Shown piece after piece: positions 1-56,132 of a DNA stretch of 64,000 nt. The stretch is taken from the IMG/VR virus record IMGVR_UViG_3300007609_000010, positions 1 to 64,000 of that record; one strand, 5' to 3'. Positions within the stretch are counted from its first letter, which is position 1. The number at the start of each line of letters is the position of its first letter. The notes beneath the pieces were generated by a model. That model was given only the letters and a program-made list of their open reading frames with translations. It made no database searches and was not told the DNA's origin. This DNA is from a virus. A program made the translations under genes and the position numbers.

Positions 1-468
1 ACTGCACAATTTACCATCGGTGATTTAACAGTTAATCTGCGTCCTTTAGATTATAAAACAACTACTAAATTTAATATGCAACAGTATCAGCTTGAAAAAA
101 CCATTGCAAATTTAAATCAAAGTGAGTTAACTACTGAAGAACGAGATTCAAAAATAGGCGAATTACTATTAGAATCTAGTAAACTCAATTTGTTAATAGC
201 TGTATCTCACATAGTCTCAATCGAAGCAGATGGCGAGGCAGAAAGTAATTCTGAAACTATCTATAATTTTATATCTGAAAATGATTCTGAATTTTATGGT
301 TCTTTAAAAGAAAATATAAAGACACTAACAGATAGATGGAAGCTTCCAAACATAGATGTACAATGCGCAAATGGAGAATGTCAAGTTTTATATCCTACAA
401 AACTAAACATGGATTATTCAAGTTTTTTCGGTCTACCCTCGTCGCGCTCTCGGACTCTGAAATTTTAG
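1..468 (+). CDS. 26: Baseplate hub assembly protein gp26-like (5' end cut by window)
   Basis: The reading frame is open from base 1, so the gene starts upstream of the window and 155 residues are visible. The protein has the composition and ending of the T4-type gp26 family seen in marine myoviruses: a helical body, a Cys-containing turn (VQCANGECQV) and a terminal D-Y-S-S-F-F-G motif. In T4, gp26 helps assemble the baseplate hub and is not an abundant virion part. After the FFG motif the zero frame adds only about 14 basic residues before a stop at 466-468, which looks like non-conserved tail. A slippery heptamer sits exactly on the FF codons, and the downstream gp51-like frame continues from it in -1. 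The family call is from memory of the motif pattern; the partial frame is certain. Confidence 0.7.
   Translation, partial: TAQFTIGDLTVNLRPLDYKTTTKFNMQQYQLEKTIANLNQSELTTEERDSKIGELLLESSKLNLLIAVSHIVSIEADGEAESNSETIYNFISENDSEFYGSLKENIKTLTDRWKLPNIDVQCANGECQVLYPTKLNMDYSSFFGLPSSRSRTLKF
423..429 (+). promoter_or_regulatory. Slippery heptamer T TTT TTC for -1 frameshifting
   Basis: In the gp26 frame the bases read T|TTT|TTC, the X XXY YYZ form needed for a -1 slip. Both Phe codons re-pair as TTT after the slip, and the next codon becomes CGG at 429-431. That enters the gp51-like frame, which stays open to the stop at 660-662. The 30 bases after the heptamer are clearly GC-richer than their surroundings, as for a stimulatory structure, but no strong hairpin could be drawn by eye. 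The heptamer is seen; its use in cells is inferred. Confidence 0.6.
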
Positions 469-662
469 AATTAGTCAAGCAGTACGAAAACGAAACTAAA
501 CAACTCAAAGATGATGTTTATCGCCTAGGATGGTACATGCGAGGATCTTTTTCTTACGACGACCTTATGTTTAGAATATCTCACGAAGATCGAGAAATAA
601 TAGGAAGAATAATCAAAGATAACATTGAAAGAGTCAATGAAACTAGGATGCCTTTGCTTTAG
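429..662 (+). CDS. 51: gp51-like baseplate hub assembly factor, read as -1 frameshift extension of gp26
   Basis: This 77-residue stretch (from RSTLVALSDSE to RMPLL) is helical and charged. It carries the WYMRG...DREII...DNIE pattern that I associate with the short gp51-type hub assembly protein of marine T4-like phages. In its own frame there is no ATG, GTG or TTG near the conserved part. The only upstream ATG, at 336, would add about 31 residues read out of frame through conserved gp26 sequence. Joining through the slippery site at 423-429 gives a fused gp26-gp51 protein, much like the G/GT tail chaperones of lambda. The end overlaps the converging gene on the minus strand by 20 bases. Alternatives are weak initiation at an internal codon or a sequencing indel. 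Confidence 0.6.
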   Translation, partial: RSTLVALSDSEILELVKQYENETKQLKDDVYRLGWYMRGSFSYDDLMFRISHEDREIIGRIIKDNIERVNETRMPLL

Positions 663-2436: not shown

Positions 2437-3192
2437 TCAACAATCGAAATAAACTGCTCTAAGCTGTATGGGATTGTCCCCGCTAGCATACCCTGCTATG
2501 CGTGTGCTACAATCGCCTTGTATGCCTTTCAGTAATGCTCTTTCCAGCATTGCTTGCCTATAAGTTAGATCGTGATTGGCTGTTTTTGCAATCGTGCCTG
2601 CTTCTGTGCCTTTTAGAGTTTGTAATGCAATAATGCCTTGTCCTACAGCTGGAGTGCAATGATGTACAGGAAGTCTAATCCAACCTCTGTCTATACCCAG
2701 TGTTTGCAATCCTGCTTCTGCTAATACTATAGCATCATATTCTCCGTTGTCTAGTTTTTCTAAACGTGTGTCAATATTTCCTCTAATAGGTTTGATTTCA
2801 ACATTTAGATTTGAATAAAACTTTGATAACTGTGCAGTTCTTCTTGGACTGCTGGTGCCTAACCGAAATCCGTCAAAGATATTGCCAACTACTACATCGT
2901 ATGGACTGTTTCTTTCTAATACCGCAGATATTTCCAAGTCAGGGTGTTCTACATCACCTGGCATGTCCTTTAAACTATGCACAGCAATATCTACTTGGCC
3001 ATTTAACAGTGCAGTTTCGATAGCATTACAGAAAACACCTTTTCCTCCTATTTCGTGAATAGGAGTGTCGGCATTGATATCACCGTCTGTTTTTATAATC
3101 ACAATCTCAGTGTCGCAATCTAGTTTACTGCACACAAGGTCAGCATAAGCCAATGCAAGTTTACTGCCTCTAACACCTATACGCACAGTCAT
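2437..3192 (-). CDS. hemC: Porphobilinogen deaminase (hydroxymethylbilane synthase), short form
   Basis: Joins four porphobilinogen units into hydroxymethylbilane, a step of haem and chlorophyll synthesis. The 251 residues start with RIGVRGSKLAL, continue with the active-site Asp segment HSLKDMPGD and the substrate-binding Arg segment LGTSSPRRTAQL, and include the RGNIDTR and PAVGQG blocks. The dipyrromethane cofactor Cys is kept in GDCSTRIAGYA (about residue 228). Bacterial enzymes are about 310 residues; this one stops soon after the cofactor loop, so most of domain 3 beyond the loop is missing. It overlaps the small upstream gene by four bases (ATGA). In a phage it is an auxiliary metabolic gene acquired from a bacterium. 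Activity of the short form is uncertain. Confidence 0.92.
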   Translation of the reverse strand: MTVRIGVRGSKLALAYADLVCSKLDCDTEIVIIKTDGDINADTPIHEIGGKGVFCNAIETALLNGQVDIAVHSLKDMPGDVEHPDLEISAVLERNSPYDVVVGNIFDGFRLGTSSPRRTAQLSKFYSNLNVEIKPIRGNIDTRLEKLDNGEYDAIVLAEAGLQTLGIDRGWIRLPVHHCTPAVGQGIIALQTLKGTEAGTIAKTANHDLTYRQAMLERALLKGIQGDCSTRIAGYASGDNPIQLRAVYFDC

Positions 3193-3400: not shown

Positions 3401-5173
3401 TTATTCCACAATTTCCAAATCATTTGCATATGAAGTAAATCCATTCTCTTTGATAACTTTCAGCACATTATTCACACGACCTACCAGTTCGTCTTTGTGC
3501 GAAATAAGGAAAATGTTCTTCTTGCGTTCTCTGGTCATCTTCTTAAGAACCGCAATTGCATTTTCTACACCAGAACTGTCCATGCCTGAATCCACCAGCT
3601 CGTCAATAAACAACAAATTGATATTTTGATATAGGCTTTCCCAAACATCACGAAATGCAAAGCTCATGCCCAGTATCAGTCTGTTGCGCTCGCCTCTTGA
3701 TAGGTTATCAAAGTCTAAATCCTGTCCCAGCTGAGTGATTTCCACACTCAAGTCGTTCTGGAATGTCACCTGATGAGGAAGTCCTAGCAAGCTCAAATAA
3801 TATGTCAGTCGATTGTTTAGATACATTAGATTTTGATCAATAATCTTTTTGCGAATAAACGAATCCTTATTGGTTAACAGTTTCAACAAGAACTCTTGAT
3901 GGTCTTTGAATTCGCTCAGGCTGTTAACTGTGTCCCAATTGATCTCCTGCATCGCAGTAGAATTCAACTCGTCTATCTGTGCCTGATAAGGATCATCTTC
4001 TGTTTCTTTGTTGGACAATGCCTGCGTTAGACTGTCAACATTGTTTCTGTGTTCGTATGCTTCTTTGGCGCTTTCATAGAACGTGCTGGGTCTACCGTTG
4101 ATATCTCCGATTTTGTTTAGATCAGACAACACTAATTCCAGTTTGTCAGCAACTTCTGTTTGATATGCCATTGCATCAGACAGTTCTTTTTTCTTTCGAG
4201 ATAAGATTTCTTCTTTTTTGTCTGCATGCAATGCCTGTCCGCAGGTATAACAGGTTGCGCCATCTAATTCACCAATGTCAGTCTCGGCTTTCTTTACACT
4301 TTTGTCTGCACGAAGCAGTGCGCTTTCCAGTGTGCTCTTTTCTTTGTTAAGGGCCGAGATAGCATTGTTCATCTCAGTCCAATTGTTAAGCTTTTCATGA
4401 GCTTCAAGTTCTGCATCAATGTCTAGATGTTCCAGTTCTTCAATGGCATCCTGCAATTTTTCACAGTCTTTCTTTTTCTTAGCCTGCCAAGCACGCTGAT
4501 TTTGTTTTAGATTGTCAATTGTGCTCTGTATCTTCTTGTTAGACTCTTCAATGGCATTAATTTTAAATGTTTCTTCAGTGATTTTTTCTTTGATCTGTTT
4601 GATTTCGTCTTTGAGTTGATCAGCTTTCTCACTGAGGATTGTAATGCCCAACAGTTGTTCGATGATGTTTCGCTGATCGTTAGCCCGCATGCTCAAGAAA
4701 GGCTCTGTGTAAGTGTTCAGCGCCACAATGTGTTTAAACATATCGTGACTCATGCCTAACAGATGGTTAATGTCTTCTTGAGTTTTGCGGCTGTCGCCTT
4801 GCGATTCGTCTTCTTCTATCTGCTCTTCATTGTTGATAAAGAATTTCAGCACATTAGGAGAGCGACCCCGCTCTATCCTATAATCTGCTCCGTTCTTTTC
4901 AAAGGATAGGGTGACCAACATCCCTTTAGAATTAGTCTTATTGATAAGATTATTCCGTTTGATGTTGGTCAGTGCTTGGCCGTACAAAGCATAACTAAGA
5001 GCATTAATGATCGTAGTTTTACCCGTACCGTTGCGCGATCCTGAATCGTCACCTCCTTGGTCTAAATTTTCACCAAGCACTAAAGTTAAATTGGTTTGAT
5101 CGAAATCCACTGCCTGGGTTTGATTGCCCACGCTCATGAAATTCTTAACAGTTAAATCCTTAATTTTTATCAT
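3401..5173 (-). CDS. 46: Recombination endonuclease subunit gp46 (Rad50/SbcC-like ATPase)
   Basis: With gp47 this forms the Mre11/Rad50-type nuclease that resects DNA ends for recombination-dependent replication and helps degrade host DNA. The 590-residue protein has the expected order: a P-loop ending RNGTGKTT (about residue 50), a long coiled coil, a zinc-hook CYTCG near the middle (about residue 308), a second coiled coil, the ABC signature LSRGERNR (about residue 490), Walker B LLFIDE, and a late His in LISHKDE. T4 gp46 is 560 residues, so the length fits. The P-loop has a small acidic/Gly insert (QGGDDSGS) before GTGKTT. It overlaps gp47 by four bases. Confidence 0.95.
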   Translation of the reverse strand: MIKIKDLTVKNFMSVGNQTQAVDFDQTNLTLVLGENLDQGGDDSGSRNGTGKTTIINALSYALYGQALTNIKRNNLINKTNSKGMLVTLSFEKNGADYRIERGRSPNVLKFFINNEEQIEEDESQGDSRKTQEDINHLLGMSHDMFKHIVALNTYTEPFLSMRANDQRNIIEQLLGITILSEKADQLKDEIKQIKEKITEETFKINAIEESNKKIQSTIDNLKQNQRAWQAKKKKDCEKLQDAIEELEHLDIDAELEAHEKLNNWTEMNNAISALNKEKSTLESALLRADKSVKKAETDIGELDGATCYTCGQALHADKKEEILSRKKKELSDAMAYQTEVADKLELVLSDLNKIGDINGRPSTFYESAKEAYEHRNNVDSLTQALSNKETEDDPYQAQIDELNSTAMQEINWDTVNSLSEFKDHQEFLLKLLTNKDSFIRKKIIDQNLMYLNNRLTYYLSLLGLPHQVTFQNDLSVEITQLGQDLDFDNLSRGERNRLILGMSFAFRDVWESLYQNINLLFIDELVDSGMDSSGVENAIAVLKKMTRERKKNIFLISHKDELVGRVNNVLKVIKENGFTSYANDLEIVE

Positions 5174-22908: not shown

Positions 22909-25900
22909 ATGTCATCAAACAGTCAAAACGAATTTGGAGCACCAACACAGGGAGAAAGCAATCGCACTAGTGCAAGATTTCTTCCTAGGTTTTTCAGATC
23001 GGAAGCTAATCTCAAATTTTTGCAGGCAACCGTTGATCAATTAACGCAACCAGGTGTTGCTGAAAAATTAGGCGGGTTCTTTGGAAGAAAAATTGCCAAA
23101 GGTTATAGACCTGGAGATGTTTATGTAGGTGATGTTAACAGCCAACGAGAAAATTATCAACTGGAACCTGCTCTGGTTATCAAAAATGAATTAGGTAATG
23201 TAACATATTATAAAGACTACAATGATTATATAAATTCGCTGTCGTTTTTCAATGTGAACACTGCTAACCACGACAAGTTGAATCGACAAGAAAGTTATCC
23301 GTGGAATCCCAACATTGACTGGGACAAGTTTGTAAACTTTCGTGAATACTATTGGCTACCGGACGGTCCCCTAAGTGTACCTGTAAGAGGACAAGCTAGA
23401 GAAATCCAAAGCACGTTTACTGTTTCCGTTGAAGAAGCAGATGGAGATTTTTCCTATGTGTTTAATAATAAATTCACTCGCAACCCTAGCCTGAAGTTGT
23501 ATAGAGGACAAACATACAGATTCGAAATTAACTGTCCTGGACATCCTTTTGCAGTAGCAGTTACTAGAAGTTTCACTCCAGGAAATGCAGTGGTCGTTGC
23601 AGGCAACGAAGGAATCAGACAAGACGGTCTGTTTGGCGCAGATTTATATGGCAATAATTATGACATAGGTGATTGGCTGGTGTTGCCAGACAGCGGAAGC
23701 GTGACGTTCGACGATGATGAAAATGTGAGCACTCTTTATCCAGACGGTATAAGAAAACTGGGCGAAGGCGGAGAAGAAATTGCAAACGTTTATATCGAAC
23801 AAGGAGTCCTAGAGTTTACTGTGCCAGTAAATTCTCCAGATAGACTTTTCTACATATCTAAAAATGACATTGACGTTAGCGGCCTGTTCAAAATATACGA
23901 CATTGAAGAAAACAGTTTTATTGATGTCGAAGAAGAAGTTATAGGCAAAAAATACTACACCAGTTCAAACGGTGTTGAGTTTACAAATGGACTTAAGGTA
24001 TTCTTCAGAGGAGTTACAGAACCCGTAACATATCAAGAAGGAGAATATTATGTCGAGGGTGTAGGTCATGCAATTAAACTGATACCTGCAGATGACTTAG
24101 TAATCACACAAACATACAGTAACGATGTTTTGCAACCTTTTGACGAACAAGCATTTGACGAGATGCCATTCGGCGCGGCCAATTCTTATCCTGTGAAAAA
24201 AGACTATCTCACCATAAGTCGTGCCAGTAATGATCTTAATGCTTGGTCAAGATCTAACAGATGGTTCCATAGAGATGTAATAGAACAAAGTTATGTTTAC
24301 AATGAAATACCAATTGATGTTGAAGAAACAGGAAAAGCAAAGCGTCCTATTATAGAATTTGAACCCGGGTTAAAACTTTATAATTACGGAACATTTACAA
24401 AACAGAGTGTTGATGTTATAGATACATTCACCACTGATGTCTTTAGCACCGTCGAAGGCACAACTGGTTACAATGTCGATGGCGTAGAGTTGATAGCAGG
24501 TATGCGTGTGCTATTTGCCGCAGACACAGATATCATTGTTAATGGTGCAATATATGAAGTTAAATTTGTAAAAGTTGGAAACGAAGAAAGAATTACATTT
24601 GTAGAGACCGCAGACAGTTTTCCTTTGGAAAATGAAAATGTCCTCGTAAAACAAGGCAATCAGTTCGCAGGAAAACTTTTCTTTTATAATGGCGAACGTT
24701 GGATTCAAGCGCAAGATAAATTAGATGTAAATCAAGCTCCGCTGTTCGATTTATGTTGTCCAGCAGGAAACTACTATAGTGATTTAGAAGTATTTGATTC
24801 CTCAACGTTTACAGGATGTAAAGTATTCTCGTATAAAGAAGGAACAGGAACTAATGATACAGAATTAGGATTTCCGCTTACCTATCGCAATATTAATAAC
24901 ACAGGCGATATTCTTTTCGAATTCAACTTACTCACAGACAGTTTTACGGTGCAAAACGAAGATGAAATTGTCACTGTAACTACCGATACATCATTTCTAA
25001 GATCTTATTCTACAAGGACTGATTTTGAGTATCGTAATGGATGGAGTACTACACCAGTTGTAAGTCGTCAAAAAGTTCTTAGACATTATGATGCCACAGA
25101 ATCTCAAACAAACAATTTTGAAATTGATGTATACAATAATGCAGGCGATCTAAATGATCTAAAGATTGCTGTTTTTGTAAATGAAGTATTCAAGCAACAA
25201 GGTCTGCACTATGAAATTGATAGGCTAAATGGCAGAGCTTATGTGCGCTTTCTAGATAACTTGGCACCAAACGATGTTGTCTTAATCAAAAGCACCAGTA
25301 GTACTGCAAAAAATGCCAACGGGCATTATGAAGTTCCGTACAATCTAGAAAGAAATCCACTTAATCAAAATATCTCAGACTTTACACTAGGTGAAGTTAT
25401 AGATCATGTAGATTCTATGATAGAGGATATACCAGAATTTTCTGGGTCATATCCTGGTCGTAGTAATTTACGTGATGTAGGAAAACTAGACGGATACGGA
25501 AAGCGTTTTCTTAAGCACGCTGGTCCTCTCAATCTTCCAATGTATAGCATAACCACAAAAGAATATAATATTGTTCGAGCTATAGAATATGGAAAAAACG
25601 AGTATACAAAATTTAAAAGAAACTTTTTGATTACAGCGGCTGATTTAGGAGTGGATGCAGAAATACCTGTTCATGTAGATGCAGTTTTAGAAGAACTAAA
25701 CAAAGATAAAGTAAACACCCAGCCATTTTACTTTTCGGACATGTTAGGTTATAAGTCTAGTAACACAATATATTATAATGTAGTTGATAACGAAAATCCT
25801 TACTACGGCTTACCTGACGAATTTAGTTTAAACAATCTTAATAACAAATCGATACTAATTTACCTTAATGGTAATCAATTAATTTTCAATAAAGATTATC

Positions 25901-28900
25901 AATTTACAGATGAACAATTTGCTTATATTCAAGCCGGGCAACAAATTGGGGATGAGATAGAAATAGTCGAATACGAAAGTACCGACGGCAGTTACATACC
26001 TCCTACTCCGACAAAATTAGGACTATATCCTAGATTTGAACCTGAGTTAGTAATTGACGAACAATGGCTAGACAATCAGCAAGATGTAAATGTTACCCGA
26101 CCATATGCCGTTTACGGAGAAAACCTAAACAATCATTTAGACAGGGGTTGGTTTTATCCTTTATATCTTGATAGAAAAACAGCAAAAACTGACGATCCTG
26201 ACGAAAGCGTAATTCAAATAATGTTTAAAGGGTCTAGCAGAATATTTTATGCCCCCGCAAGTAAAATAAATCTAGGAACATCAGTTCCGCCTGAACAGTA
26301 CACAGAGTTTCCTATAGGAGCTACATTTGTTAAAGGCCACGATGGCAGTTTATTTAAATGTTATAAAGACTATAGAGATCTATTATTACTAGAATTAGAA
26401 ACAAGAATCTATAATAACATTAAAGTCGATTATGATAAAACACAAATTAATATACATTCATACGTTGGCGGCAGATTTAGAGACACAGGGTTATCAAATG
26501 CAGACATTGACAGAATATTAATTAAAGATTTTGCCGACTGGAATAGAGTAGCAAACATTGACTATACTGCAAACACTGTGTTTCAGAATCAAGATCAATT
26601 TTCATATAATTATAGCACAGCTGGTTCTATTGTGGATAATAATTCTTTACCGGGATATTGGAGAGCTGTTTATAAGGACGCATTTGACACAGATCGTCCG
26701 CATACTCATCCTTGGGAAATGCTAGGGTTTTCAATAAAGCCTGTTTGGTGGGACGAAGTATACGGCGTTCCTCCTTACACTAGTAATAATACAATACTAT
26801 GGAACGATTTGCAAGAAGGAATAGTTCGCGAGCCAGGCAAAGGAGTAGTGATTAAAAGCGATTATGCACGACCAGGACTTGTTAATTTCCTACCGGTAGA
26901 CAATCAAGGTCAATTAAAGGCGCCAATAAACGCCAACTATGCCAAAAACATAGTGCTTAGAAATACGGACGACAGTTTTGAGTTTGGCGATCAAGCACCG
27001 GTAGAAAGTGCATGGCGCCGAAGCTCCGAATACCCATTTTCTTTAATTAAAGCCATTATGTTAAATCGTCCAGCAGATTTTATAGGTAAAGCATTTGATG
27101 TTGCTCGTATTTCTAGAAATTTGGCGGGACAGTACATTTATTCCGAAACCGGTAAACACTTAGAACTAGATAAATTGGTATTCCCTAATACATATCAAGA
27201 CAATAGACGAATTCCTGCTAGCGGGCTTGTCAATTACATTTATAACCTTGTTGGCAGCAATGTATTGACAGTATACGAAGATTATAAGAACAATATAAAG
27301 AATATTAGAAACCAACTGGGGATAAAGTTAGCAGGATATACTGACAAACAAAAATTAAATTTGCTTTTACAAAGCAAAAGTCCCAGCGAAGAAAACGCAC
27401 AAGGAATATTTATTCCAGAAGAAAACTATGATGTGTTTTTGAATGTATCTAGTCCTGTGGACAATGTAAATTACAGCGGAGTGTTAATAGAAGTTAGGCC
27501 AGACGGATATATTATTCAGGGTTATAATGCAGATACTCCTATGTTCCGTTATTATACACCTGTCGGCAAGCAAGGAGACATCACAGTGGTAGCAGGCGGC
27601 GAATCTGCAAATGTTGTGCAATGGCAACCGAACAAATTGTATGTAAATGGACAGATTGTAGAAAATAATTTCTCATATTTTAGAGTTACACAAGATTTCA
27701 CCAGTGGTCCTGCTTTTTCAGACGACAACTTGGCTAAATTGCCAGAACTGCCTATTACAGGCGGCCAACGTGCTCAAATTAAAACAGGATTCAACAAGTC
27801 TAGGGTATTAGAATTAAATTACGGTGCAAAATTAAAAACTGTTCAGGAAGTAGTAGATTTCTTACTTGGATATGGAGAGTATCTAAAAGACCAAGGATTC
27901 CGGTTTGAGTACTTTGACCAGAATTATCAAAGAGTAGAAGATTGGAAATCAGCCGCTAAAGAATTTTTATTCTGGAGCTCACAAGGGTGGGCCGCTGGTA
28001 CAGTGATTGGGCTTAGTCCAAGTGCTTACGAAATACAATTTAGACGTGATTTTGCTGTAGTTGATGATATATTTGACAACTTTTATAGATACAGTTTGTT
28101 GGCTGAAAATGGAAACCCTCTAGAACGCAGATTTAGTAATGTTCTTAGAGAAAAAAATTCCTTTAATTTATCAGTTTCACAAACTGATAACGGTATCTAC
28201 AATCTTACATTGCCCACTGTGCAAAAAGAACATGTTATATTATTGGACAACGAAACTATCTTTAATGATATTCTGTATCAACCTTACTCAGGTTATAGAC
28301 AGGAGAGAATAAAAGTTCTTGGATACAGGAGTGACAACTGGGACGGCAGTTTAAACATCCCTGGATTTGTTTTTGACGATGCAACAGTTACAGAATGGGA
28401 ACCATGGCAAGATTATTCAATCGGTAGCCTGGTTAAGTATAAAGAATTTTATTATGTGTCGTTGTATCAAGTATATGGCAGTGCTGAATTTAATCCTAAC
28501 TTTTGGAGTCGTCTAAGCGAAAAGCCAGAATCACAGTTAATGACTAACTTTGACTTTAGGGTAAACCAATTCGCAGACTTTTATGATGTAGAAAGTATAG
28601 GCTTTGATGAAGATCAGCAACGTCTTGCACAACATCTCATTGGCTACCAAAAACGAGATTACTTAGCCAACATAATCAATGACGAAGTTAGCCAATTTAA
28701 ATTCTATCAAGGATTTATTCAAGATAAAGGAACTAGAAATTCTATTGATAAACTGTTTAATTCTCTAGAAGGTCAAACTGAAAGTTTAGACTTCTATGAA
28801 GAGTGGGCAGTCCAGTCGGGATTTTACGGAGACTTTGACAAAATTAAACAGGTTGCTATTCCTCTGCAAGAAGACAAAATGTTAGAAACTCCGCAAGGCA

Positions 28901-31900
28901 TTGAACTAGTGGATTACATACCGCAAGGTGTGTTTGATACCACTTATAGAGTGCGTCCCTTCCAATTAGAAAATAAACCTGCAGATTTCACAGTAAATTG
29001 TTTTCCTACCACTAAGCTTCAGGAGTATGTGCTCACAGGTGGATATGTTCACGAAGACGATGTTGATTATAAAATTCAAACTATAAGTGAACTAGAAACA
29101 GTTGATAATAATCTTATCTCTATAGGGGAGTATCTCTGGGTAACAGACGAAGAACCAAACAATTGGAATGTTTACAGGGTATTAGAATCGTTAATAACAA
29201 TTAACTCGTTTGCAATAAATGAAGATCTTAATGAACTGGGACAAACAATTGCAACTGTTGAATTTAGCGGAGCCGAAGTTGATATAATTGCAGGCGATGT
29301 AATCGCAATTAACGATGCTCAACTTTATAATATTCTTGGGTTCTTTATTGTAGACGAAATAGATTCCTCTACTTGCACATTGGTAATTCCTGAAGAAAAC
29401 AATTTTAAGGATTTTGTAGACGAAAGTTTTGCGTGTGTTGTTTTAAAGTCTGCAAGGGTTAGCAACTTTACAGAATTTAACACAGTGGCAGAAACTTTCG
29501 ATTTAGACAGTCAGAAAATCTGGATTGATTCCTACGAAGGTCCCGATCTTTGGGCCGTTCTTCAAAACGAGCCTGTGTATGAAAACACATATGAGCTGTT
29601 AAATCCTGCCGACGTTGCAGAATCTACTGAAATATTTGATGAAACACAGTTATATGCTAAAGATTTTGCAACCAGTTTAGATAATAAGTTATTGTTTACC
29701 AGCGCCCCGGGACTAGATAACGGAGTAGTATATCTATACAGAAGAGATCAAGACGTAGACGAACCTATTCTGTCACAGACAATTAATAATCCTAATCTTA
29801 ATTTTGATGGTACGGAATCTAAGTTTGGTGAATCCGTAGCAGTGACAGAAGACGGCGAATATGTTGCAATTGGTATACCAGATGCAAGCTCAATTAAAAC
29901 AAAGTATCAAGGAATTTACAGAGTTTCTCAAGATTATAACAAAGGCGACATTGTAAAGCACAAAGGAAGTCTATGGCAAGCAGTTCGTCAAGTGTTTGGA
30001 CAGCAGTCTAACAGACAATATAGTACCTTTGATAGCTATATTGACATCGATGCTAGAACATTCGAAGACTCTAGTGTAATTAAGTTGTTATTGACAGGTT
30101 CACCTGGATTGCAAAATCGTCAGGTAAACCACTTCTTGGTTAGAGCTCCTGCAGATATGTATCTAGGATCTAAGATAGGTGATCAATTAAAATTAGAATG
30201 GAACGAGTTTACGTACTTGAATGGTGATATTAATACACCTTATTATCCGTGGAATAATTCTATACCTGAACTAGGGTATAACAGTTCTACAGATAATATC
30301 TTTATAGAAGACTTCCACGAAATTAAAGGTAAGATTGACAAAGTTCTGATACTGCCAGAATATAAGAGAGCTGTTCAAGTTGGTGATCAAGTACAAACAG
30401 AAACAGGATTTGCAGATGTAGCTTATGTTGATATATCAGCAGGCACAATGGTATTGTATATTAATAATCTGCGAGGTTCATTTAGCTCTGCCGATACATT
30501 GCAGTTCTTTGACTTCAATACAGCTATTACAGAAGAAGTTGGAGAGTATACAGAAGTAGATTATGGGTTCACAGATGACTTTAATGGATTTTGGATTGTG
30601 CAACTGGACAGCAGTGATAGCGGGTTTGCATTTAATGAGAATAATTCTAATTACGATAATGGAACAACATTTTATGAAGTAGGAACTGGCTTGGTAATTG
30701 CCGATGTTATACAAAGCGAAGAGTTTGATTCAGCCGGCCGCGAACGTAATCTGTATTTCAACGTTATCGACAGTATTAAATCTATAGGAGCAGTTCCCAG
30801 TAATAATCTAAAATCCAGCATGATACACAACCTGGGTGACAAATATATGGTGAGAATGTCACCGGAGATGACTGCTGAACTAGAATATAGATTTGCAAAG
30901 CGTAAACAAAATTTAAATGCAACATTTGGAGACACACCGGCTGTTAAGGATAGTCTAAATGGTTCATTTATTAATCTTGTATTAGGCGAATACGATGAAA
31001 TATATGAGGATAGCGACGATTATCTACCAATAAGTTCAAGACCCCAAATCAGATTTAATTTGTTTGACTATGTAGGATCTCCGTTTTATAATGAAGCAGA
31101 CGATGCTGGTTTATTTTTCCAAGCTGTAAATGGTCGTAAGACTGTGACAGACCTTTGGGACGGATACATTGATGTGACTCTTAAAGAAGTAGATCCTGAA
31201 ACTGGAAACCTTTATAGATTTAAAGCAAATGATACTATAAGCGATGTTCAAAGACCTTTTGACATATTCCAAAGACCTAGTGCAGTTCCATTTAACACAA
31301 TACCTGAAAATATAGCTGTAGTTACATCAGTTAAAGATAACATTGATGGAAGATTTGACAGGCAACGATTGTATATAAAAATTAAAAGCGGCGCATGGGA
31401 ATTAGAAAACAATATTGCACAGATTGAGTTAGAAAGGCGTAGAGAATTTGATGCCGATAGAATAATTGGCGAAATAGAAAACTACGCCAACGATGTAATT
31501 GTTCCTAGTCGTTTTATTGGTAAATTTATGGTCATTGACAGTGCCGATTTAGGCACAGGGTCAAATTATGTTTTGGAAAATGCTGAATATTTCATTACTA
31601 CTGAATCCTTAAATGAATTAGGTGCAGATTCTGTACCTAGCGTGCCTAGCAGTCTAAATAGAGATTATGAACAGGTGTACAATATAACAACTAACAACGG
31701 GGGTACACCGGGCAAAGCTAACGAAGGATGCGTGGCAATTTTCCAAAGATCCGGACCGGATAATTATAACCTAAGCCGAATTATAGTAAGCGAGCAAAAC
31801 TTCGGAGTGTTAAACAATCGTTTCGGAAAAAATGTTAAGTTTGTTAAAAATGGATTGCAGTATAGACTGAGCGTGGCCAGCGACGGAGACTTTAATACAA

Positions 31901-34900
31901 CAAATCCTGGACTTATAGAATTTTTTGAACATGGCCCATTAAACGACGCAACTTATAAAGGAACATGGAATCCGAATCTTTCTTACAATGTAAATGATAC
32001 AGTAAAATATGATGGAGATTATTATGTTGCTAAGATCAATATTCTTATTCAAAATGACGGCACTATTTTAGATAGAAATATCTGGGAAAATGTCAGCTGG
32101 AGAAGATCAGTAGATCCCAACTTCAAGGGCGTGTGGGAAGTCGAAGAAGAATATGCAAGAGACAGCATTGTTATATATAACGGCGAGCAATATGTGTCAC
32201 AAACTAATCTCGGAGCAGGAAATCTTGCCGACGCAGGCATCAGGAATCCAGTTGCAGCTAATACCAGTTGGACAAAACTGGAAAACAGTGTTGAATATGC
32301 TGGATTCATTCCTAGAATAATCGATCCAGTTTTGACTGAGATTTTAGATGATGAAACTGTGTTCAATACTGCTAACATTAGAGAGTTCACTGAAGATTAT
32401 GTGCTAAGTCAAAAAGGAGAAGTGCTAGTAACAAAAGTCAGACAGGCAGCACAAGTTGATACGGTGCAGTTTGTTGTTTATAGACAAGACCTGAACGGCA
32501 GATATGTCAAAAGCCAAACCATAGTGTTTGAAGATAAAACCAAAGGTTATGGAACCAGTTTTGATATATCTGCTGACGGGGCTACATTTGCAGTATCGGA
32601 ACCGCTTAATGCTGAACAGGGTACAGACATCGGAAAAGTCTATGTGTATGCAGTTTCCGGAGAACAATTTGATACTGAAAATGTAAGCGTATTATTCCCT
32701 CCTAGCGGTCAAACTGCAAAATACTTTGGATACAGTCTTGCATTCAATACAGGAAGTTTAAACATTGCTGCCATTGACGAAACTAACTCCATTGGCGAAG
32801 TTCTAGTTTATGAAAGCATTCAAAACACTTTGGTGTACAGCGAAAAACTGACTTATCCTGTGAACGATACTGACAGGGATCAAAAAGTATTTGGCTCGGC
32901 GAACCATGTTTATGTAGGCATGCCAGGAAAGCCTAACAACCAATTTGCTGGATCTTTGATAGAATACAGAAAAGACCTTAATGCAAAAGGGTGGGAGAGA
33001 ACAAGAAGACTGATCAGTCCTGTAGATGTGGATAAAATACGAGGAGTATTCCTTTACAACAAAGAGTCAGAACAGAAAATTACCTATCTTGATTATATCG
33101 ATCCTGTCCAAGGAAAAATTGCAGGACCTGCTGAACAAAACCTCAGTTACAAAGTACCATATGATCCTGCTCAATACAATGTCGGCAATACAGCCAATGA
33201 CGTAAACTGGGCAGACGAACATGTAGGAAAACTTTGGTGGAATACAGGCAATGCAAGATTTACATATCCATATCAGGGCGACATAAACTATCAAAGATCT
33301 AACTGGAACGAACTCCAGCCAGGTGCAACAATAGATGTTTATGAATGGGTAGAATCGTACTTGTTACCTAGTGCATGGGATTCAATAACAAATACTGCTA
33401 AAGGTACTGAACTTGGTGTTACCGGTGTAACACTTTATGGTAATGACAAATACAGTAAGAAATTTGAGTTTGATAGAGAAGCACAAACCTTTAGAGAAAA
33501 ATATTACTACTGGGTAAAGAATAAGAGAACTGTTCCTAACATTGAAGGAAGAACAATCAGCGCACTTGATGTTGCTCGACTGATAGCACAACCCAGAGAG
33601 CAAGGATATAGATTTATAAGTTTCCTTGCAGACAACAGAATTGTTTTAAACAATTGTAAGTCACTTGTATCCGGTGATACCACCGTGTTAAACATTGATT
33701 ACATTACCAGTGATATCAGAGAGCAAAATGGGCATAGTGTGTATCAAATTATCACAGACGGCTTGGCGACAAGCTCTCCTAATGAAACTATTGAACTCAA
33801 ATGGTTTGACAGTTTAATAGGTTTTGATGTAAACGACAAACCTGTTCCCGATATTGCTTTAGCTGAAAAGCAAAAATACGGAGTACAAGCCAATCCAAGA
33901 CAAGGCATGTTTGTAAACCGTATTGAAGCCCTAAAACAGTTTGTGGAAAGAACAAACAGCGTTCTTACAAATCATCTTGTGACTGAAAACTACAATTTAG
34001 CCAATTTATCTTTGCAAGACGAAATTCCAGTTAGCTCACTGGGCGAATACGACGTGACTGTTGCTACCAAAGAAGAACTGTTTTTGGTAGGAACCAAAGT
34101 TCAACGGGCAGAGATTAATCCCATAATTGTAAATGGCAAAATAGTCAGGGTAGAAATCATCAACCCAGGAAGAGGATATAAACTTCCTCCTACTTACGAA
34201 ATTACAGGTACAGGAGGTTCTGCAACACTGGAATTCCAGATAAACAATCTAGGACAGATTACCAGTGCTACTGTTACTAATCCAGGCGAAAATTATTCTG
34301 CAAATACCAGAATACTTGTGAGACCATTCTCGGTGCTGGTCGAATCCGACAAAGACGCTCTTAATAAGTGGGCGATATATGCTTACAATTCCTTCTCCAG
34401 TTCCTGGGATAGAGTAAAAGTGCAATATTTTGATGTGACTAGGTATTGGGAATATCAAGATTGGTTCGACACCGGGTATAGCGAAATAACAGAAATAGAT
34501 CATTATATTGATGCCCAATATCAATTGAGTTCCTTAAATGATAAAGTAGGAGATATAATTAAAATTCAAAATGTAGGTTCCGGCGGCTGGCTAGCTCTCA
34601 GAAAAGTAAATGACAGAACAGACGATAACTTTGCTCTAAATTATTCTGTAGTAGGCAGGGAAAAAGGAACAATACGGTTGTTGCCTAGTCTTTACAACGC
34701 TGAAAGCAGCACCACAGGATTTGACAATCGCAGTTTTGATAACAATTTCTATGATGTAGACCCAAGAATAGAGTTAAGAGTAATTTTAGAAACTTTAAGG
34801 GATGAAATATTTGCAAGCGAATTGAGAAGAGAATATAATCAGCTGTTTATTGCCAGCCTTAGATATATCCTCAACGAGCAAAAAAATCCAGATTGGTTCT

Positions 34901-37218
34901 TTAAAACCAGCTTTATAAAAATTAAACATTTGGCCGGTACACTGGAACAAGATATCACTTATAATGCCGACCTGCTGAAAAGCTATACGCAATATGTTGA
35001 AGAAGCAAAACCTTTCAAAACTGTTATTAGGGAATTTGTAAGCAAATATGCCAAAACAGAAGAAAGTCCAACCACTGTTACAGATTTTGACCTAGCTCCT
35101 TATTATAACACACAACAGGAAAAAATAATACCTGCAAAAGTAAAACTAACAAGTGGTCAACCAGTATATAATGATTCTGTAATAGATCAATATCCTCGTA
35201 GACATTGGCTAGATAATTTTGGTAATGCTGTTACTGAAATCACCGTGCTAGATGGCGGTAGTGAATACAGATTTAAACCTGAAGTTGAAATTGTAGGCGG
35301 ATACGGCGAAGGCGCTCGCGCTGAAGCATTTATAGGATACGGACAGGTTACAAAAGTTATTGTAACACACGGCGGCTCAGGATATACTAGATCTCCGCAA
35401 GTCAGAATTGCACCTCCTAGCAACAGTGCTGGAAAAACTGCTACTGCTGTGGCTACCCTAGGCGACAGTGTGGTAAGAAGTGTATCCAGTTTGATAAAGT
35501 TTGATAGAAATACAATTACAAATTTGTATGAAACTGATACCTTGCAATCCACAGAAACATTTACTGGCACAGGAGCCGACGTTGAGTTTAAACTGAAATG
35601 GCCGATGGATCTAGATCGAAAGACGGTGCTAATAACCATAGACGGTGAAGAAATATTCGGCAGCCGATACAGCTACGAAAACATAAAGGATACGTCTAAG
35701 AGCTATACACGACAAATTGGAAAAGTTACACTGGTAAATCCGCCAAAAACCGGCGCCAACATTGTTATACAATACAGCAAGAATATTTCACTGTTAAACG
35801 CTGTAGACAGAATAAAATTTGCTTACGCCCCGCAAGAAGGTATGTTTGGCAAAGACATCAGTCAGCTTATGGAAGGCGTAGACTTTGGCGGAGTAGAAGT
35901 AAAGAGCTTTGATTTTGTAACCAGCACAGGCTGGGACACAGAAGGATGGTTTAATGATATTTGGGACAATGCTGAACAGCCTCAAGATGAAATTGTAACT
36001 TTAGATGGATCCACTAGTATAATCATATTAGGCGAGCCGTTAGAAGATAATGTTGATTATAACATATACAGAGTAAGCTACACTTTAAATGCAGAAGGCA
36101 TTGAAGAAATCTATTCTAACGTAAGACTTGATGATCCTGCATATGGGACAGCTCAACAAAAAAATCTTAATGCAGTTTGTCGCACCTTGCGCGGCGACGG
36201 AAGCACACAGGTTGTGGATTTAGATGATCTGGGCATTAGAGTAGATCCGCAACCAGAAGAAGACAGAGTTACTATTGTGGTAAGAAAATCTACCAGTGAT
36301 GGTGCTGTAACTCCAGATAGAAACATTTACGATGCGGACATTGACGGCGGTAGATTAGATTACGGTAACGCCAAGGGTGTAAATGCAGAAGAAATAGTGA
36401 TCGATGGCGACGGCTTTGTTACAGAATTCAATGCAGGCGGAGTAGAAGAACTTGTTCCAGGACAGGTAATGGATACCCTAGATATGCAGGTAACTACCAA
36501 AGGAGAAGATTCGACCACGGTGGTTAGATACAGATTGTTCAAAGATATTCTGAACAGAACTGCGTATAAGAGAATAGACAGTCCTACAACAACTTTGGTA
36601 GAAGATTTAGGACAGGATGATCTCAGCATTGTTGTTGATGACGCAACTGATTTACCTGAACCTAACAGGAACAAAGCACTGCCTGGAGTAATATGGATTG
36701 GCAAAGAAAGAATAGAATATTTTGTCAAGGAAGACAACTTGCTGCGCCAGATTCGCAGAGGTACACTGGGCACAGGAGTTGCAAACATTCATCCTGTTGG
36801 CACCGAAGTATATGATCAAAGTGCAATAAAAAATATTCCGTATGCAGACAGTGAGCAATCACAGGTTGCAGTAAATGTAAACGAAATACCGTTAAACTTT
36901 GAAGCTTCTAACAATAACGAATTTGAAGTTTTTGTTAATGGTACTAGATTAAATGGGGTTGCTATATCTAAATTTGATTCAGCATTAGACCAAGATTCTC
37001 CTGAAGGAGACGTCATAATACCAGCCGACTACACACTGGAATATGTAAGTGGTACAACAGGACAGGTCAAGGTTGTGTTTACTAATCCTGAAATTATTGC
37101 TTTGACAAATAAAAACATTGTAATTGTAAGAAAACAAGGAACTTTGTGGAAAAATATCGGAGAATCACTTGCAGATACACAAACAAATATAGGATTTTTC
37201 TTAAGATCTGGAAACTAA
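22909..37218 (+). CDS. Giant virion structural protein (4769 residues), probably gp7-position baseplate/fibre protein
   Basis: One uninterrupted frame of 14.3 kb. Near the start (about residues 165-310) is a cupredoxin-like module (SLKLYRGQTYRFEINCPGHPF...VLEFTVPVN). Short Trp/Tyr modules resembling CBM5/12 carbohydrate-binding repeats recur at about 1569, 1828, 2334, 3016 and 3072 (W...Y..G..V.Y....Y pattern). FG-GAP-like beta segments lie at about 2250-2330 and 3210-3350. Two GxGY-type beta repeats (NPGRGYKLPP, HGGSGYTRSP) lie near 3750 and 4117-4170. Coming right after gp6, it takes the place of gp7 and is far longer than T4 gp7 (1032). It likely forms a baseplate-attached, glycan-binding structure. 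No enzyme is recognised. Confidence 0.7.
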   Translation: MSSNSQNEFGAPTQGESNRTSARFLPRFFRSEANLKFLQATVDQLTQPGVAEKLGGFFGRKIAKGYRPGDVYVGDVNSQRENYQLEPALVIKNELGNVTYYKDYNDYINSLSFFNVNTANHDKLNRQESYPWNPNIDWDKFVNFREYYWLPDGPLSVPVRGQAREIQSTFTVSVEEADGDFSYVFNNKFTRNPSLKLYRGQTYRFEINCPGHPFAVAVTRSFTPGNAVVVAGNEGIRQDGLFGADLYGNNYDIGDWLVLPDSGSVTFDDDENVSTLYPDGIRKLGEGGEEIANVYIEQGVLEFTVPVNSPDRLFYISKNDIDVSGLFKIYDIEENSFIDVEEEVIGKKYYTSSNGVEFTNGLKVFFRGVTEPVTYQEGEYYVEGVGHAIKLIPADDLVITQTYSNDVLQPFDEQAFDEMPFGAANSYPVKKDYLTISRASNDLNAWSRSNRWFHRDVIEQSYVYNEIPIDVEETGKAKRPIIEFEPGLKLYNYGTFTKQSVDVIDTFTTDVFSTVEGTTGYNVDGVELIAGMRVLFAADTDIIVNGAIYEVKFVKVGNEERITFVETADSFPLENENVLVKQGNQFAGKLFFYNGERWIQAQDKLDVNQAPLFDLCCPAGNYYSDLEVFDSSTFTGCKVFSYKEGTGTNDTELGFPLTYRNINNTGDILFEFNLLTDSFTVQNEDEIVTVTTDTSFLRSYSTRTDFEYRNGWSTTPVVSRQKVLRHYDATESQTNNFEIDVYNNAGDLNDLKIAVFVNEVFKQQGLHYEIDRLNGRAYVRFLDNLAPNDVVLIKSTSSTAKNANGHYEVPYNLERNPLNQNISDFTLGEVIDHVDSMIEDIPEFSGSYPGRSNLRDVGKLDGYGKRFLKHAGPLNLPMYSITTKEYNIVRAIEYGKNEYTKFKRNFLITAADLGVDAEIPVHVDAVLEELNKDKVNTQPFYFSDMLGYKSSNTIYYNVVDNENPYYGLPDEFSLNNLNNKSILIYLNGNQLIFNKDYQFTDEQFAYIQAGQQIGDEIEIVEYESTDGSYIPPTPTKLGLYPRFEPELVIDEQWLDNQQDVNVTRPYAVYGENLNNHLDRGWFYPLYLDRKTAKTDDPDESVIQIMFKGSSRIFYAPASKINLGTSVPPEQYTEFPIGATFVKGHDGSLFKCYKDYRDLLLLELETRIYNNIKVDYDKTQINIHSYVGGRFRDTGLSNADIDRILIKDFADWNRVANIDYTANTVFQNQDQFSYNYSTAGSIVDNNSLPGYWRAVYKDAFDTDRPHTHPWEMLGFSIKPVWWDEVYGVPPYTSNNTILWNDLQEGIVREPGKGVVIKSDYARPGLVNFLPVDNQGQLKAPINANYAKNIVLRNTDDSFEFGDQAPVESAWRRSSEYPFSLIKAIMLNRPADFIGKAFDVARISRNLAGQYIYSETGKHLELDKLVFPNTYQDNRRIPASGLVNYIYNLVGSNVLTVYEDYKNNIKNIRNQLGIKLAGYTDKQKLNLLLQSKSPSEENAQGIFIPEENYDVFLNVSSPVDNVNYSGVLIEVRPDGYIIQGYNADTPMFRYYTPVGKQGDITVVAGGESANVVQWQPNKLYVNGQIVENNFSYFRVTQDFTSGPAFSDDNLAKLPELPITGGQRAQIKTGFNKSRVLELNYGAKLKTVQEVVDFLLGYGEYLKDQGFRFEYFDQNYQRVEDWKSAAKEFLFWSSQGWAAGTVIGLSPSAYEIQFRRDFAVVDDIFDNFYRYSLLAENGNPLERRFSNVLREKNSFNLSVSQTDNGIYNLTLPTVQKEHVILLDNETIFNDILYQPYSGYRQERIKVLGYRSDNWDGSLNIPGFVFDDATVTEWEPWQDYSIGSLVKYKEFYYVSLYQVYGSAEFNPNFWSRLSEKPESQLMTNFDFRVNQFADFYDVESIGFDEDQQRLAQHLIGYQKRDYLANIINDEVSQFKFYQGFIQDKGTRNSIDKLFNSLEGQTESLDFYEEWAVQSGFYGDFDKIKQVAIPLQEDKMLETPQGIELVDYIPQGVFDTTYRVRPFQLENKPADFTVNCFPTTKLQEYVLTGGYVHEDDVDYKIQTISELETVDNNLISIGEYLWVTDEEPNNWNVYRVLESLITINSFAINEDLNELGQTIATVEFSGAEVDIIAGDVIAINDAQLYNILGFFIVDEIDSSTCTLVIPEENNFKDFVDESFACVVLKSARVSNFTEFNTVAETFDLDSQKIWIDSYEGPDLWAVLQNEPVYENTYELLNPADVAESTEIFDETQLYAKDFATSLDNKLLFTSAPGLDNGVVYLYRRDQDVDEPILSQTINNPNLNFDGTESKFGESVAVTEDGEYVAIGIPDASSIKTKYQGIYRVSQDYNKGDIVKHKGSLWQAVRQVFGQQSNRQYSTFDSYIDIDARTFEDSSVIKLLLTGSPGLQNRQVNHFLVRAPADMYLGSKIGDQLKLEWNEFTYLNGDINTPYYPWNNSIPELGYNSSTDNIFIEDFHEIKGKIDKVLILPEYKRAVQVGDQVQTETGFADVAYVDISAGTMVLYINNLRGSFSSADTLQFFDFNTAITEEVGEYTEVDYGFTDDFNGFWIVQLDSSDSGFAFNENNSNYDNGTTFYEVGTGLVIADVIQSEEFDSAGRERNLYFNVIDSIKSIGAVPSNNLKSSMIHNLGDKYMVRMSPEMTAELEYRFAKRKQNLNATFGDTPAVKDSLNGSFINLVLGEYDEIYEDSDDYLPISSRPQIRFNLFDYVGSPFYNEADDAGLFFQAVNGRKTVTDLWDGYIDVTLKEVDPETGNLYRFKANDTISDVQRPFDIFQRPSAVPFNTIPENIAVVTSVKDNIDGRFDRQRLYIKIKSGAWELENNIAQIELERRREFDADRIIGEIENYANDVIVPSRFIGKFMVIDSADLGTGSNYVLENAEYFITTESLNELGADSVPSVPSSLNRDYEQVYNITTNNGGTPGKANEGCVAIFQRSGPDNYNLSRIIVSEQNFGVLNNRFGKNVKFVKNGLQYRLSVASDGDFNTTNPGLIEFFEHGPLNDATYKGTWNPNLSYNVNDTVKYDGDYYVAKINILIQNDGTILDRNIWENVSWRRSVDPNFKGVWEVEEEYARDSIVIYNGEQYVSQTNLGAGNLADAGIRNPVAANTSWTKLENSVEYAGFIPRIIDPVLTEILDDETVFNTANIREFTEDYVLSQKGEVLVTKVRQAAQVDTVQFVVYRQDLNGRYVKSQTIVFEDKTKGYGTSFDISADGATFAVSEPLNAEQGTDIGKVYVYAVSGEQFDTENVSVLFPPSGQTAKYFGYSLAFNTGSLNIAAIDETNSIGEVLVYESIQNTLVYSEKLTYPVNDTDRDQKVFGSANHVYVGMPGKPNNQFAGSLIEYRKDLNAKGWERTRRLISPVDVDKIRGVFLYNKESEQKITYLDYIDPVQGKIAGPAEQNLSYKVPYDPAQYNVGNTANDVNWADEHVGKLWWNTGNARFTYPYQGDINYQRSNWNELQPGATIDVYEWVESYLLPSAWDSITNTAKGTELGVTGVTLYGNDKYSKKFEFDREAQTFREKYYYWVKNKRTVPNIEGRTISALDVARLIAQPREQGYRFISFLADNRIVLNNCKSLVSGDTTVLNIDYITSDIREQNGHSVYQIITDGLATSSPNETIELKWFDSLIGFDVNDKPVPDIALAEKQKYGVQANPRQGMFVNRIEALKQFVERTNSVLTNHLVTENYNLANLSLQDEIPVSSLGEYDVTVATKEELFLVGTKVQRAEINPIIVNGKIVRVEIINPGRGYKLPPTYEITGTGGSATLEFQINNLGQITSATVTNPGENYSANTRILVRPFSVLVESDKDALNKWAIYAYNSFSSSWDRVKVQYFDVTRYWEYQDWFDTGYSEITEIDHYIDAQYQLSSLNDKVGDIIKIQNVGSGGWLALRKVNDRTDDNFALNYSVVGREKGTIRLLPSLYNAESSTTGFDNRSFDNNFYDVDPRIELRVILETLRDEIFASELRREYNQLFIASLRYILNEQKNPDWFFKTSFIKIKHLAGTLEQDITYNADLLKSYTQYVEEAKPFKTVIREFVSKYAKTEESPTTVTDFDLAPYYNTQQEKIIPAKVKLTSGQPVYNDSVIDQYPRRHWLDNFGNAVTEITVLDGGSEYRFKPEVEIVGGYGEGARAEAFIGYGQVTKVIVTHGGSGYTRSPQVRIAPPSNSAGKTATAVATLGDSVVRSVSSLIKFDRNTITNLYETDTLQSTETFTGTGADVEFKLKWPMDLDRKTVLITIDGEEIFGSRYSYENIKDTSKSYTRQIGKVTLVNPPKTGANIVIQYSKNISLLNAVDRIKFAYAPQEGMFGKDISQLMEGVDFGGVEVKSFDFVTSTGWDTEGWFNDIWDNAEQPQDEIVTLDGSTSIIILGEPLEDNVDYNIYRVSYTLNAEGIEEIYSNVRLDDPAYGTAQQKNLNAVCRTLRGDGSTQVVDLDDLGIRVDPQPEEDRVTIVVRKSTSDGAVTPDRNIYDADIDGGRLDYGNAKGVNAEEIVIDGDGFVTEFNAGGVEELVPGQVMDTLDMQVTTKGEDSTTVVRYRLFKDILNRTAYKRIDSPTTTLVEDLGQDDLSIVVDDATDLPEPNRNKALPGVIWIGKERIEYFVKEDNLLRQIRRGTLGTGVANIHPVGTEVYDQSAIKNIPYADSEQSQVAVNVNEIPLNFEASNNNEFEVFVNGTRLNGVAISKFDSALDQDSPEGDVIIPADYTLEYVSGTTGQVKVVFTNPEIIALTNKNIVIVRKQGTLWKNIGESLADTQTNIGFFLRSGN

Positions 37219-49864: not shown

Positions 49865-50772
49865 GTGATAAAAAATTTAGAGTTGTAGATTACGATATTA
49901 TCTATCTTAGCTACGACGAGCCTAACGCAGAAAAAAACTATGCAGATCTGTTAACAAAAGTTCCATGGGCTAAAAGAATTCACGGAGTGAAAGGAAGTGA
50001 CGCTGCACATAAAGCCTGTGCAGAAATATCAGAAACAGACAGGTTTATCACAGTAGATGGAGATAACATAGTACATGCTGATTTCTTAAATGTTGAACTA
50101 GATTTCAGCGAGAACGAATATCTTGAAAAAGCTGTGATTTCTTGGTGCGGCAAAAATATCATTAATGATCTAATGTACGGTAACGGTGGACTAAAATGCT
50201 GGCCTAGAGAATATGTACTCAGCATGCGTACACATGAAAATGCCGACCCTGATAACGCACACGCTCAAGTTGATTTCTGTTGGGATGTAGAGTACATTCA
50301 AATGAACGAATGTTTTTCTACAGTTTACAATAATGCTACGTCTCAGCAAGCATGGAGAGCAGGATTTCGTGAAGGTGTAAAAATGGCATTAAATCAGGGA
50401 GTAAAGCCCACAGTAGAGGAGTTTTACGAAAATCACTGGAGATGTTTACACTGGTTATATATTTGGATGATGGTAGGCTCGGACGTAGAGCACGGTGATT
50501 GGGCAAATCTTGGTGCACGAGCAGGACTTTACAAGACAATGTGCACTGATTGGAATTATGTTCAGGTTAGAGATTTTGACTATTTAAACAATCTATGGGA
50601 CGAAGAATTTGTAGATTTTGAAGGTCATGAAGTGTACGACGAGAGTTGTAATTATACAAAATTACTTTCTCAAAACCTAAATATTCCTGTAGCGGATCCT
50701 CTATCCGCAGGACAAAGTAAATTTTTCAAAAGTGTTTATAAAAGTCCGCCTAGAATAGATAAAGGATTATAA
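49861..50772 (+). CDS. Possible glycosyltransferase, first of a related pair
   Basis: Starts at GTG, overlapping the upstream TGA. The 303-residue protein has YDIIYLSYDEPNAEKNYADL, AKRIHGVKGSDAAH, and an acidic FITVDGDN motif (about residue 62) in the position of a GT-A DxD. A Trp/Cys-rich half follows (LKCWPREYVLSM, WRCLHWLYIWMM). The gene at 56133 has the same order of motifs, so they are paralogues. The GT-A-like start and the company of two transferases support a sugar-transfer role, but the family is not firmly recognised. Confidence 0.55.
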   Translation: MSDKKFRVVDYDIIYLSYDEPNAEKNYADLLTKVPWAKRIHGVKGSDAAHKACAEISETDRFITVDGDNIVHADFLNVELDFSENEYLEKAVISWCGKNIINDLMYGNGGLKCWPREYVLSMRTHENADPDNAHAQVDFCWDVEYIQMNECFSTVYNNATSQQAWRAGFREGVKMALNQGVKPTVEEFYENHWRCLHWLYIWMMVGSDVEHGDWANLGARAGLYKTMCTDWNYVQVRDFDYLNNLWDEEFVDFEGHEVYDESCNYTKLLSQNLNIPVADPLSAGQSKFFKSVYKSPPRIDKGL

Positions 50773-53556: not shown

Positions 53557-54395
53557 AACAAATTAAAAAAATTATAGTAGGAGGTGATAGCTTTACAGCC
53601 GGCGACGAACTAGACGGAGATTTGCACATTCCGGGATATTCTGCAATAGTAAAAGATGGAGCAAACGAAAATGAAAGAAAAAATGCTTGGCAAAGATATA
53701 AGGAAAAGTTAAAAAAACTTTCTCGAGATGATAGTTTTAAGTATGATGATATTAGAAAAAACCGCGCTTGGCCAGCAATACTTTCCAAAAAAATAGGAAT
53801 TACTGTTGAGAATACAGCCTCTCCTGGAGCATCTAATCAGGATATTTGTCACAGAATTCTTATGACAGTTATAAGAGAGCTTAATAAAGGCACACCGTCA
53901 ACTGAGTTAGCTTGTTTAATTATGATTACTCATCCATTGAGGTTCGGAGCACCTATTTCTCAAGATGCTGATTGGTCAAATGAATATAATTACGAAACAA
54001 TTCATTTTAATGGGTTAGAAAAACAAAGGAAAGAAAAGGCACAATTTGGAAAATATGTGTTAACTCACTATGATTATTATGATCTATTCTGGCATAGCTA
54101 TTGCCACATACAAGGATTAAAAGGATTCTTAGATGCTCATAAAATTCCTGTGATGTTTTTTGACAGTAGTTTGTGGTCATGGGGAATTAAAGATCAAAGT
54201 ACATATCATACTAACGATGAGAGACACGGATTAACTCATCTATGTGGAAATATTATAAATCCTAAGTTTAGACTCTCTGATCACAATATCAAACATCATG
54301 GGTTACCTGGTGGGCACTTTGTAGAAAAAGTTCATGAGTACTTTGCTAATAGATTACACAAGGAGCTATTTAATGGTATACGAAACTCTTCCTAA
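53553..54395 (+). CDS. SGNH/GDSL-type hydrolase
   Basis: The 280-residue protein has block I as GGDSFTAG (nucleophile S13), an NTASPGASNQDI segment for block II with its Gly/Asn, ITHPLRFG further on, and a C-terminal HHGLPGGHFVEKV segment with the catalytic His. The FEGXN-type Asn block is less clear. The family removes acyl, often acetyl, groups from sugars and lipids. Next to glycosyltransferases it could edit acyl groups on a glycan. It overlaps its neighbours on both sides, though the next gene's true start lies only 23 bases inside it. Confidence 0.75.
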   Translation: MKQIKKIIVGGDSFTAGDELDGDLHIPGYSAIVKDGANENERKNAWQRYKEKLKKLSRDDSFKYDDIRKNRAWPAILSKKIGITVENTASPGASNQDICHRILMTVIRELNKGTPSTELACLIMITHPLRFGAPISQDADWSNEYNYETIHFNGLEKQRKEKAQFGKYVLTHYDYYDLFWHSYCHIQGLKGFLDAHKIPVMFFDSSLWSWGIKDQSTYHTNDERHGLTHLCGNIINPKFRLSDHNIKHHGLPGGHFVEKVHEYFANRLHKELFNGIRNSS

Positions 54396-56128: not shown

Positions 56129-56132
56129 TTGT

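Follow-up and report, generated by a model that had tools for sequence, protein, structure and literature searches.

The first 64,000 bases of the virus record IMGVR_UViG_3300007609_000010 (hereafter the window) begin inside a gp26-like gene of a T4-like contractile-tailed phage. This gene very probably encodes the tail assembly chaperone of the phage in two forms, a short one (TAC-N, corresponding to gp26) and a long one (TAC-NC) that is reached by -1 programmed frameshifting. The arrangement of frames and slippery site is deeply conserved, the -1 frame is under selection as a protein, and a tape-measure-like gene adjoins the locus in close relatives.

Reading frames at the end of the gp26-like gene

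Base 1 of the window is the start of the record, and the gp26-like (PF12322-family) zero frame occupies positions 1..468 on the + strand. Alignment with full-length relatives, in which gp26 has about 285 amino acids, places its 5' part beyond the record start. Towards the end of the gene, the codons GAT TAT TCA AGT TTT TTC GGT contain the heptamer T TTT TTC (423-429, +; 421-431 read AG TTTTTTC GG), which has the X XXY YYZ phase required for tandem -1 slippage. Beyond Phe-Phe, the short product continues through a dual-coding C-terminal extension (430..468, +), so that TAC-N ends in FF-GLPSSRSRTLKF, followed by the zero-frame stop TAG at 466-468. The -1 extension, TAC-C (423..662, +), reads FFRSTLVAL...WYMRGSFSYDDL...RMPLL over 77-79 codons and is closed by TAG at 660-662. 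The part past the heptamer translates as FFRSTLVALSDSEILELVKQYENETKQLKDDVYRLGWYMRGSFSYDDLMFRISHEDREIIGRIIKDNIERVNETRMPLL, and the -1 frame is free of stops from position 336 up to that TAG.

An earlier note on this DNA had placed a probable -1 frameshift at 423-662, and its coordinates, heptamer and frames all hold on re-reading of the sequence. Its further observation that the heptamer lies exactly where the conserved part of gp26 ends is strongly supported by the reading frames and by alignments with relatives. The last 20 nt of the -1 extension (643-662) are shared with a convergent gene (643-1536, -); convergent genes in an equivalent position are also found in the related loci L005, L006 and L021.

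Truncated at its 5' end, the window gp26 alone had no Pfam match, and searches for relatives with it yielded nothing useful; the -1 tail was the better probe. The family assignment comes from full-length close relatives, which match PF12322 (E=4.3e-16 for L005 and 2.4e-28 for Atu_ph07) and with which the window gp26 can be aligned (45% to L005). In BFVD, an AlphaFold model of the L021 gp26 (pLDDT 88) matched baseplate hub proteins of the T4-like type, that of phage SP-15 among them, and unnamed phage proteins, while a Foldseek search of the PDB with the same model gave no match.

Conservation of the heptamer

The mere presence of the heptamer proves nothing, because the bare 7-mer is no more common in the window than in shuffled sequences (33 found against 33.1 expected). 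T TTT TTY is rare in coding phase; the 20,099 codons of the window's other predicted genes contain it once, and only 1 of their 39 Phe-Phe pairs is written in this way. IMG/VR was scanned with the tail alignment, using patterns built on the WYM motif together with the C-terminal region and excluding the slippery site, which gave 45 loci. Of these, 44 extend far enough to include the site, and every one has T TTT TTC in phase where gp26 ends, at the same Phe-Phe. The comparison with related genomes that the earlier note had proposed thus reveals a conserved heptamer, and this conservation is the decisive argument that the heptamer is no local accident.

The same was seen in a set of IMG/VR loci and annotated phages from which near-duplicates had been removed, comprising 42 loci from jumbo phages, cyanophages and uncultured marine phages. 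Of these loci, 39 carry TTTTTTC and three TTTTTTT; they share ancestry, and their counts are therefore not independent events. The codon preceding Phe-Phe specifies N, S, D, H, Y, R or A, yet its third base is T in 42/42. Of the two Phe codons, TTT serves as the first in all 42 loci and TTC as the second in 39 of them; elsewhere in these gp26 genes, the TTT:TTC ratio for Phe is 197:73.

Among annotated records, T TTT TTC was found in Phosso, Atu_ph07, Callisto, Vibrio phage 2.275.O, Munch, CBB, 121Q, RaK2, SNUABM_19, S-RIM8 and S-SM1, and likewise in KVP40, phiAS5, DLP_6 and AG-345-D19. The variant T TTT TTT is present in RAS14, XacN1, C48C1, phiM7 and Melnitz-3, and T TTT TTG in the Rhizobium phage RL2RES. 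When the S-SM1 tail was used as query, 569 phage records were matched, 560 of them covering most of the tail, and the matches usually span the annotated gp26/gp51 boundary.

The breadth of this distribution bears on the possibility that a base is missing from the T run through a sequencing or assembly indel and that the locus is really one in-frame gene. The junction does lie in a homopolymer run. The out-of-frame arrangement recurs, however, in 44 metagenomic loci and in many independently sequenced isolates, and an indel was rejected as an explanation with hardly any probability left to it.

A different frame is used in the Bacillus phage SP-15 (NC_031245.1). Its Phe-Phe is kept at GAA TTT TTT CAC (L016 2200-2217, about record 35713-35730), but its tail, unlike the -1 tails of the other relatives checked, lies in the other frame and would therefore need a +1 or -2 shift. 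The extension is annotated just as a separate small ORF, and the genes follow one another as sheath, tube, gp26, small ORF, tape measure.

The -1 frame as a protein

Between the window and L021, the tails of which are 87% identical, substitutions number 8/1/23 at -1-frame codon positions 1/2/3, and other pairs of tails have a similar codon-position bias. These patterns indicate that the -1 frame evolves under protein-level selection. The TAC-C tail belongs to no family in Pfam or PHROGs; it is predicted to form three helices, and its model had no structural match.

An alternative reading takes the downstream ORF as a separate small gene, expressed from a start codon within it or through translational coupling to the gp26 stop. 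A separate gene (gp51 or hypothetical) is annotated in S-SM1, S-RIM8, phiM7, RL2RES and others, and in Phosso, Atu_ph07, KVP40 and AG-345-D19 an ATG occurs 3-4 codons into the -1-frame homology, overlapping or adjoining the gp26 stop. Such starts are nevertheless not conserved. The window has no ATG, GTG or TTG in the -1 frame from the heptamer to the conserved WYMRG motif, and in many relatives this stretch likewise lacks any possible start codon. Further upstream, inside gp26, the ATGs in the window's -1 frame (336, 363 and 378) are not conserved; in L021, this frame is open for just 7 codons upstream, with no ATG there. Moreover, -1-frame homology among distant tails reaches back exactly to the heptamer itself, which argues against a separate gene, and a coupled restart needs no in-phase T TTT TTC, yet the heptamer is the most conserved feature of the locus. 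We therefore regard a separate gene as very improbable. The missing start of the gp51-like sequence, to which the earlier note had drawn attention, is confirmed for the window and many relatives but not for the four phages with an ATG. Programmed -1 frameshifting, as that note had proposed, is strongly supported by the phase of the heptamer, its 44/44 conservation and the codon bias of the -1 frame.

RNA structure downstream of the heptamer

In many relatives, a stem-loop of stimulatory type is predicted, with its first base 13-15 nt from the start of the heptamer and hence 5-7 nt past its end; the corresponding region of the window is 436..520 (+). The predicted stem arms are GGCUCUUUGU/ACAAAGAGCC in Atu_ph07, GGCUCUUG/CAAGAGCC in Phosso, GGCUUCUAAA/UUUAGAAGCC in the related locus L055 and CCAUCAAGUCC/GGACUUGAUGG in XacN1. 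Fold stability was scanned in segments of 70 nt moved in 20-nt steps. In the 33 loci that do not belong to the focal group of the window's own relatives, the segment beginning 10 nt past the heptamer start was the only one with unusual stability, at a mean z of -1.75. At that position, z was below -2 in 13/33 loci, compared to 0-6/33 at other positions. The effect was weak in the focal group, and the window's own downstream RNA had no significant structure (fold z = +0.83; best -0.67). A Shine-Dalgarno-like stimulator upstream of the heptamer was not found (2/42 loci versus 26/420 control windows).

The stem-loop also helps to separate ribosomal frameshifting from transcriptional frameshifting, in which RNA polymerase would slip on the T run and make a fused message. 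A run of six T residues, extended to 7-8 in XacN1, RAS14, C48C1 and Melnitz-3, offers some room for this. Polymerase slippage usually needs runs longer than six, and the normal length of six with a conserved final C speaks against it, as does the position-conserved stem-loop predicted about 6 nt downstream in relatives, arranged as in stimulators of ribosomal frameshifting. Slippage by the polymerase thus appears just as improbable as a separate gene, and frameshifting by the ribosome remains our preferred reading.

Neighbouring genes

In 19 of the 20 related loci examined, a long protein of 637-1373 aa is encoded divergently beside gp26. Most of these long neighbours, though not the most distant ones, are related to each other in sequence and weakly to RaK2_00088, which is annotated as similar to tape measure protein. 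No library names the long neighbours themselves as tape measure, and it is for this reason that we infer their identity rather than assign it. The side of the window upstream of gp26 lies beyond the record, and the neighbour is seen in the loci of relatives only.

Several other genes of the window were recorded. Downstream of the chaperone locus lie a SegE-type GIY-YIG homing endonuclease (1940-2386, -; PF19835, E=1.5e-35) and porphobilinogen deaminase, hemC (2437-3192, -; PF01379, E=1.3e-62), the latter likely a host-derived metabolic gene. Between neighbouring ORFs, 1537-1940 contains no convincing gene, and repeated-looking motifs occur near 1520-1610. An exceptionally long ORF of 4769 aa (22909-37218) is located in the putative tail module. 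Downstream of the tail fibre genes, a cluster that is unusual in a phage encodes at least six radical SAM proteins, one of them with SPASM, in window positions 50772-62731 and, further along the record, in L075 (record 64001-82491) at 3818-5077.

Relation to T4 genes 26 and 51

T4 gp26 (residues 1-206 of 208) and T4 gp51 (residues 1-201 of 249) both match PF12322, and the last ~50 residues of gp51 form a tail that is fused in frame to the gp26-like domain. In hhalign comparisons, the -1 tails of the cyanophage and KVP40 type scored 96.6% against full gp51 and 97.5% against its C-terminal part, while the tails of the window's lineage have a moderate link to the T4 gp51 tail (61% over 32 columns). 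Given that both T4 proteins belong to PF12322 and that the gp51 tail matches the -1 tails, T4 appears to use gene 26 as the short and gene 51 as the long counterpart of the single frameshifted gene found in most relatives examined. The in-frame fusion in gp51 indicates that domain plus tail is a real protein architecture. Both genes are also carried separately in 44RR and EC-F2. The window locus differs from this T4-type arrangement, with the tail in the -1 frame of the one gp26 copy seen.

These relationships require a correction to the earlier note, which had described the locus as gp26 joined to gp51. The -1 ORF appears to correspond to the tail of gp51 only, and T4 gp51 itself carries a gp26-like domain. 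The note had also counted separate gp26 and gp51 genes in relatives against a frameshift. T4 does have separate genes, but they do not refute the frameshift here, because both of them carry the gp26 domain.

For the PF12322 chaperones as a whole, we consider it possible, though somewhat short of probable, that a Phe-Phe slippery site with a stem-loop 5-7 nt downstream was the ancestral signal of the entire T4-like family. It would have been reworked repeatedly, as in the unrelated 3' stem arms, the +1/-2 frame of SP-15 and the U UUU UUG of RL2RES, and replaced by gene duplication (26, 51) only in the T-even-type lineage. The loci form a natural series in which one can study a frameshift signal that persists, that switches direction or that gives way to gene duplication. 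In practical terms, the label 'gp51 baseplate hub assembly catalyst' in cyanophages, KVP40-like phages and jumbo phages very probably denotes the frameshifted end of a chaperone and not a separate gene.

Proposed mechanism and comparison with known systems

During translation of the locus, the majority of ribosomes would read gp26 to its own stop and produce TAC-N. A minority may slip back by one base on U UUU UUC, with tRNA-Phe re-pairing on UUU UUU. The slipped ribosomes would then read the -1 extension and release TAC-NC as a minor product that ends in a predicted helical domain with the WYMRG motif. By analogy with lambda gpG/gpGT, TAC-N and TAC-NC would act as chaperones, their mixture coating the tape measure protein and recruiting tail tube subunits.

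Tail assembly chaperones of T4-like phages were identified by Vladimirov, Gautam and Davidson (Virology 2022, 566:9-15). PMC12846349 cites this study on the poly-T slippery sequences of T4-like TAC-N genes, and PMC10885494 reports from it that some T4-like phages have a short gene and a longer fusion gene without frameshifting, with which the arrangement of T4 genes 26 and 51 agrees. The suggestion in the earlier note that the frameshift theme would be extended here to a T4-like hub is thus superseded, as Vladimirov et al. had, to the extent related in these two papers, proposed chaperone frameshifting for T4-like phages in 2022. Since chaperone frameshifting in T4-like phages was already published, the window locus is a further member. 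It shares with those chaperones, as far as they are described there, the gp26/PF12322 TAC-N, the poly-T slippery end and the -1 TAC-C. Its lineage consists of uncultured marine relatives of the jumbo phages Atu_ph07 and Phosso and may lie outside the 2022 study. T4 gp26 and gp51, hub factors that had long lacked an explanation, are tied to tail assembly chaperone function in the same way as in the part of that work related in these papers.

With T4 itself, the locus has the PF12322 domain family in common, and gp51 has a C-terminal tail that may be homologous to TAC-C. T4 differs in having two separate paralogous genes and no frameshift, the tail being fused in frame; T4 gp26 ends in EFFELL, with no slippery heptamer there. 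In the TAC locus of phage Adele and other Vandenendeviridae/Andersonviridae, a -1 frameshift is placed at GTTTTT at the TAC-N 3' end, and the tail is often annotated as a hypothetical gene, according to PMC12846349. A -1 shift on a T run at the 3' end of TAC-N is common to both loci, whereas the phage families and the slippery motif differ.

The analogy with lambda G/GT, which the earlier note had drawn, is strongly supported. Both systems would combine a short form with a -1 frameshifted long form, in lambda beside the tape measure gene and in relatives of the window locus beside a putative one. Xu, Hendrix and Duda reportedly treated lambda gpG/gpGT, along with further frameshifted chaperones of tail assembly, in 2004. 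The lambda slippery site is GGGAAAG, in contrast to U UUU UUC (TTTTTTC in the DNA) in the window. The proteins have no detectable sequence relation, with relatives of the window locus matching PF12322 only, and unlike in lambda, the tape-measure-like gene of the window's close relatives is on the opposite strand. The window locus would work like lambda gpG/gpGT and is not a member of the lambda family.
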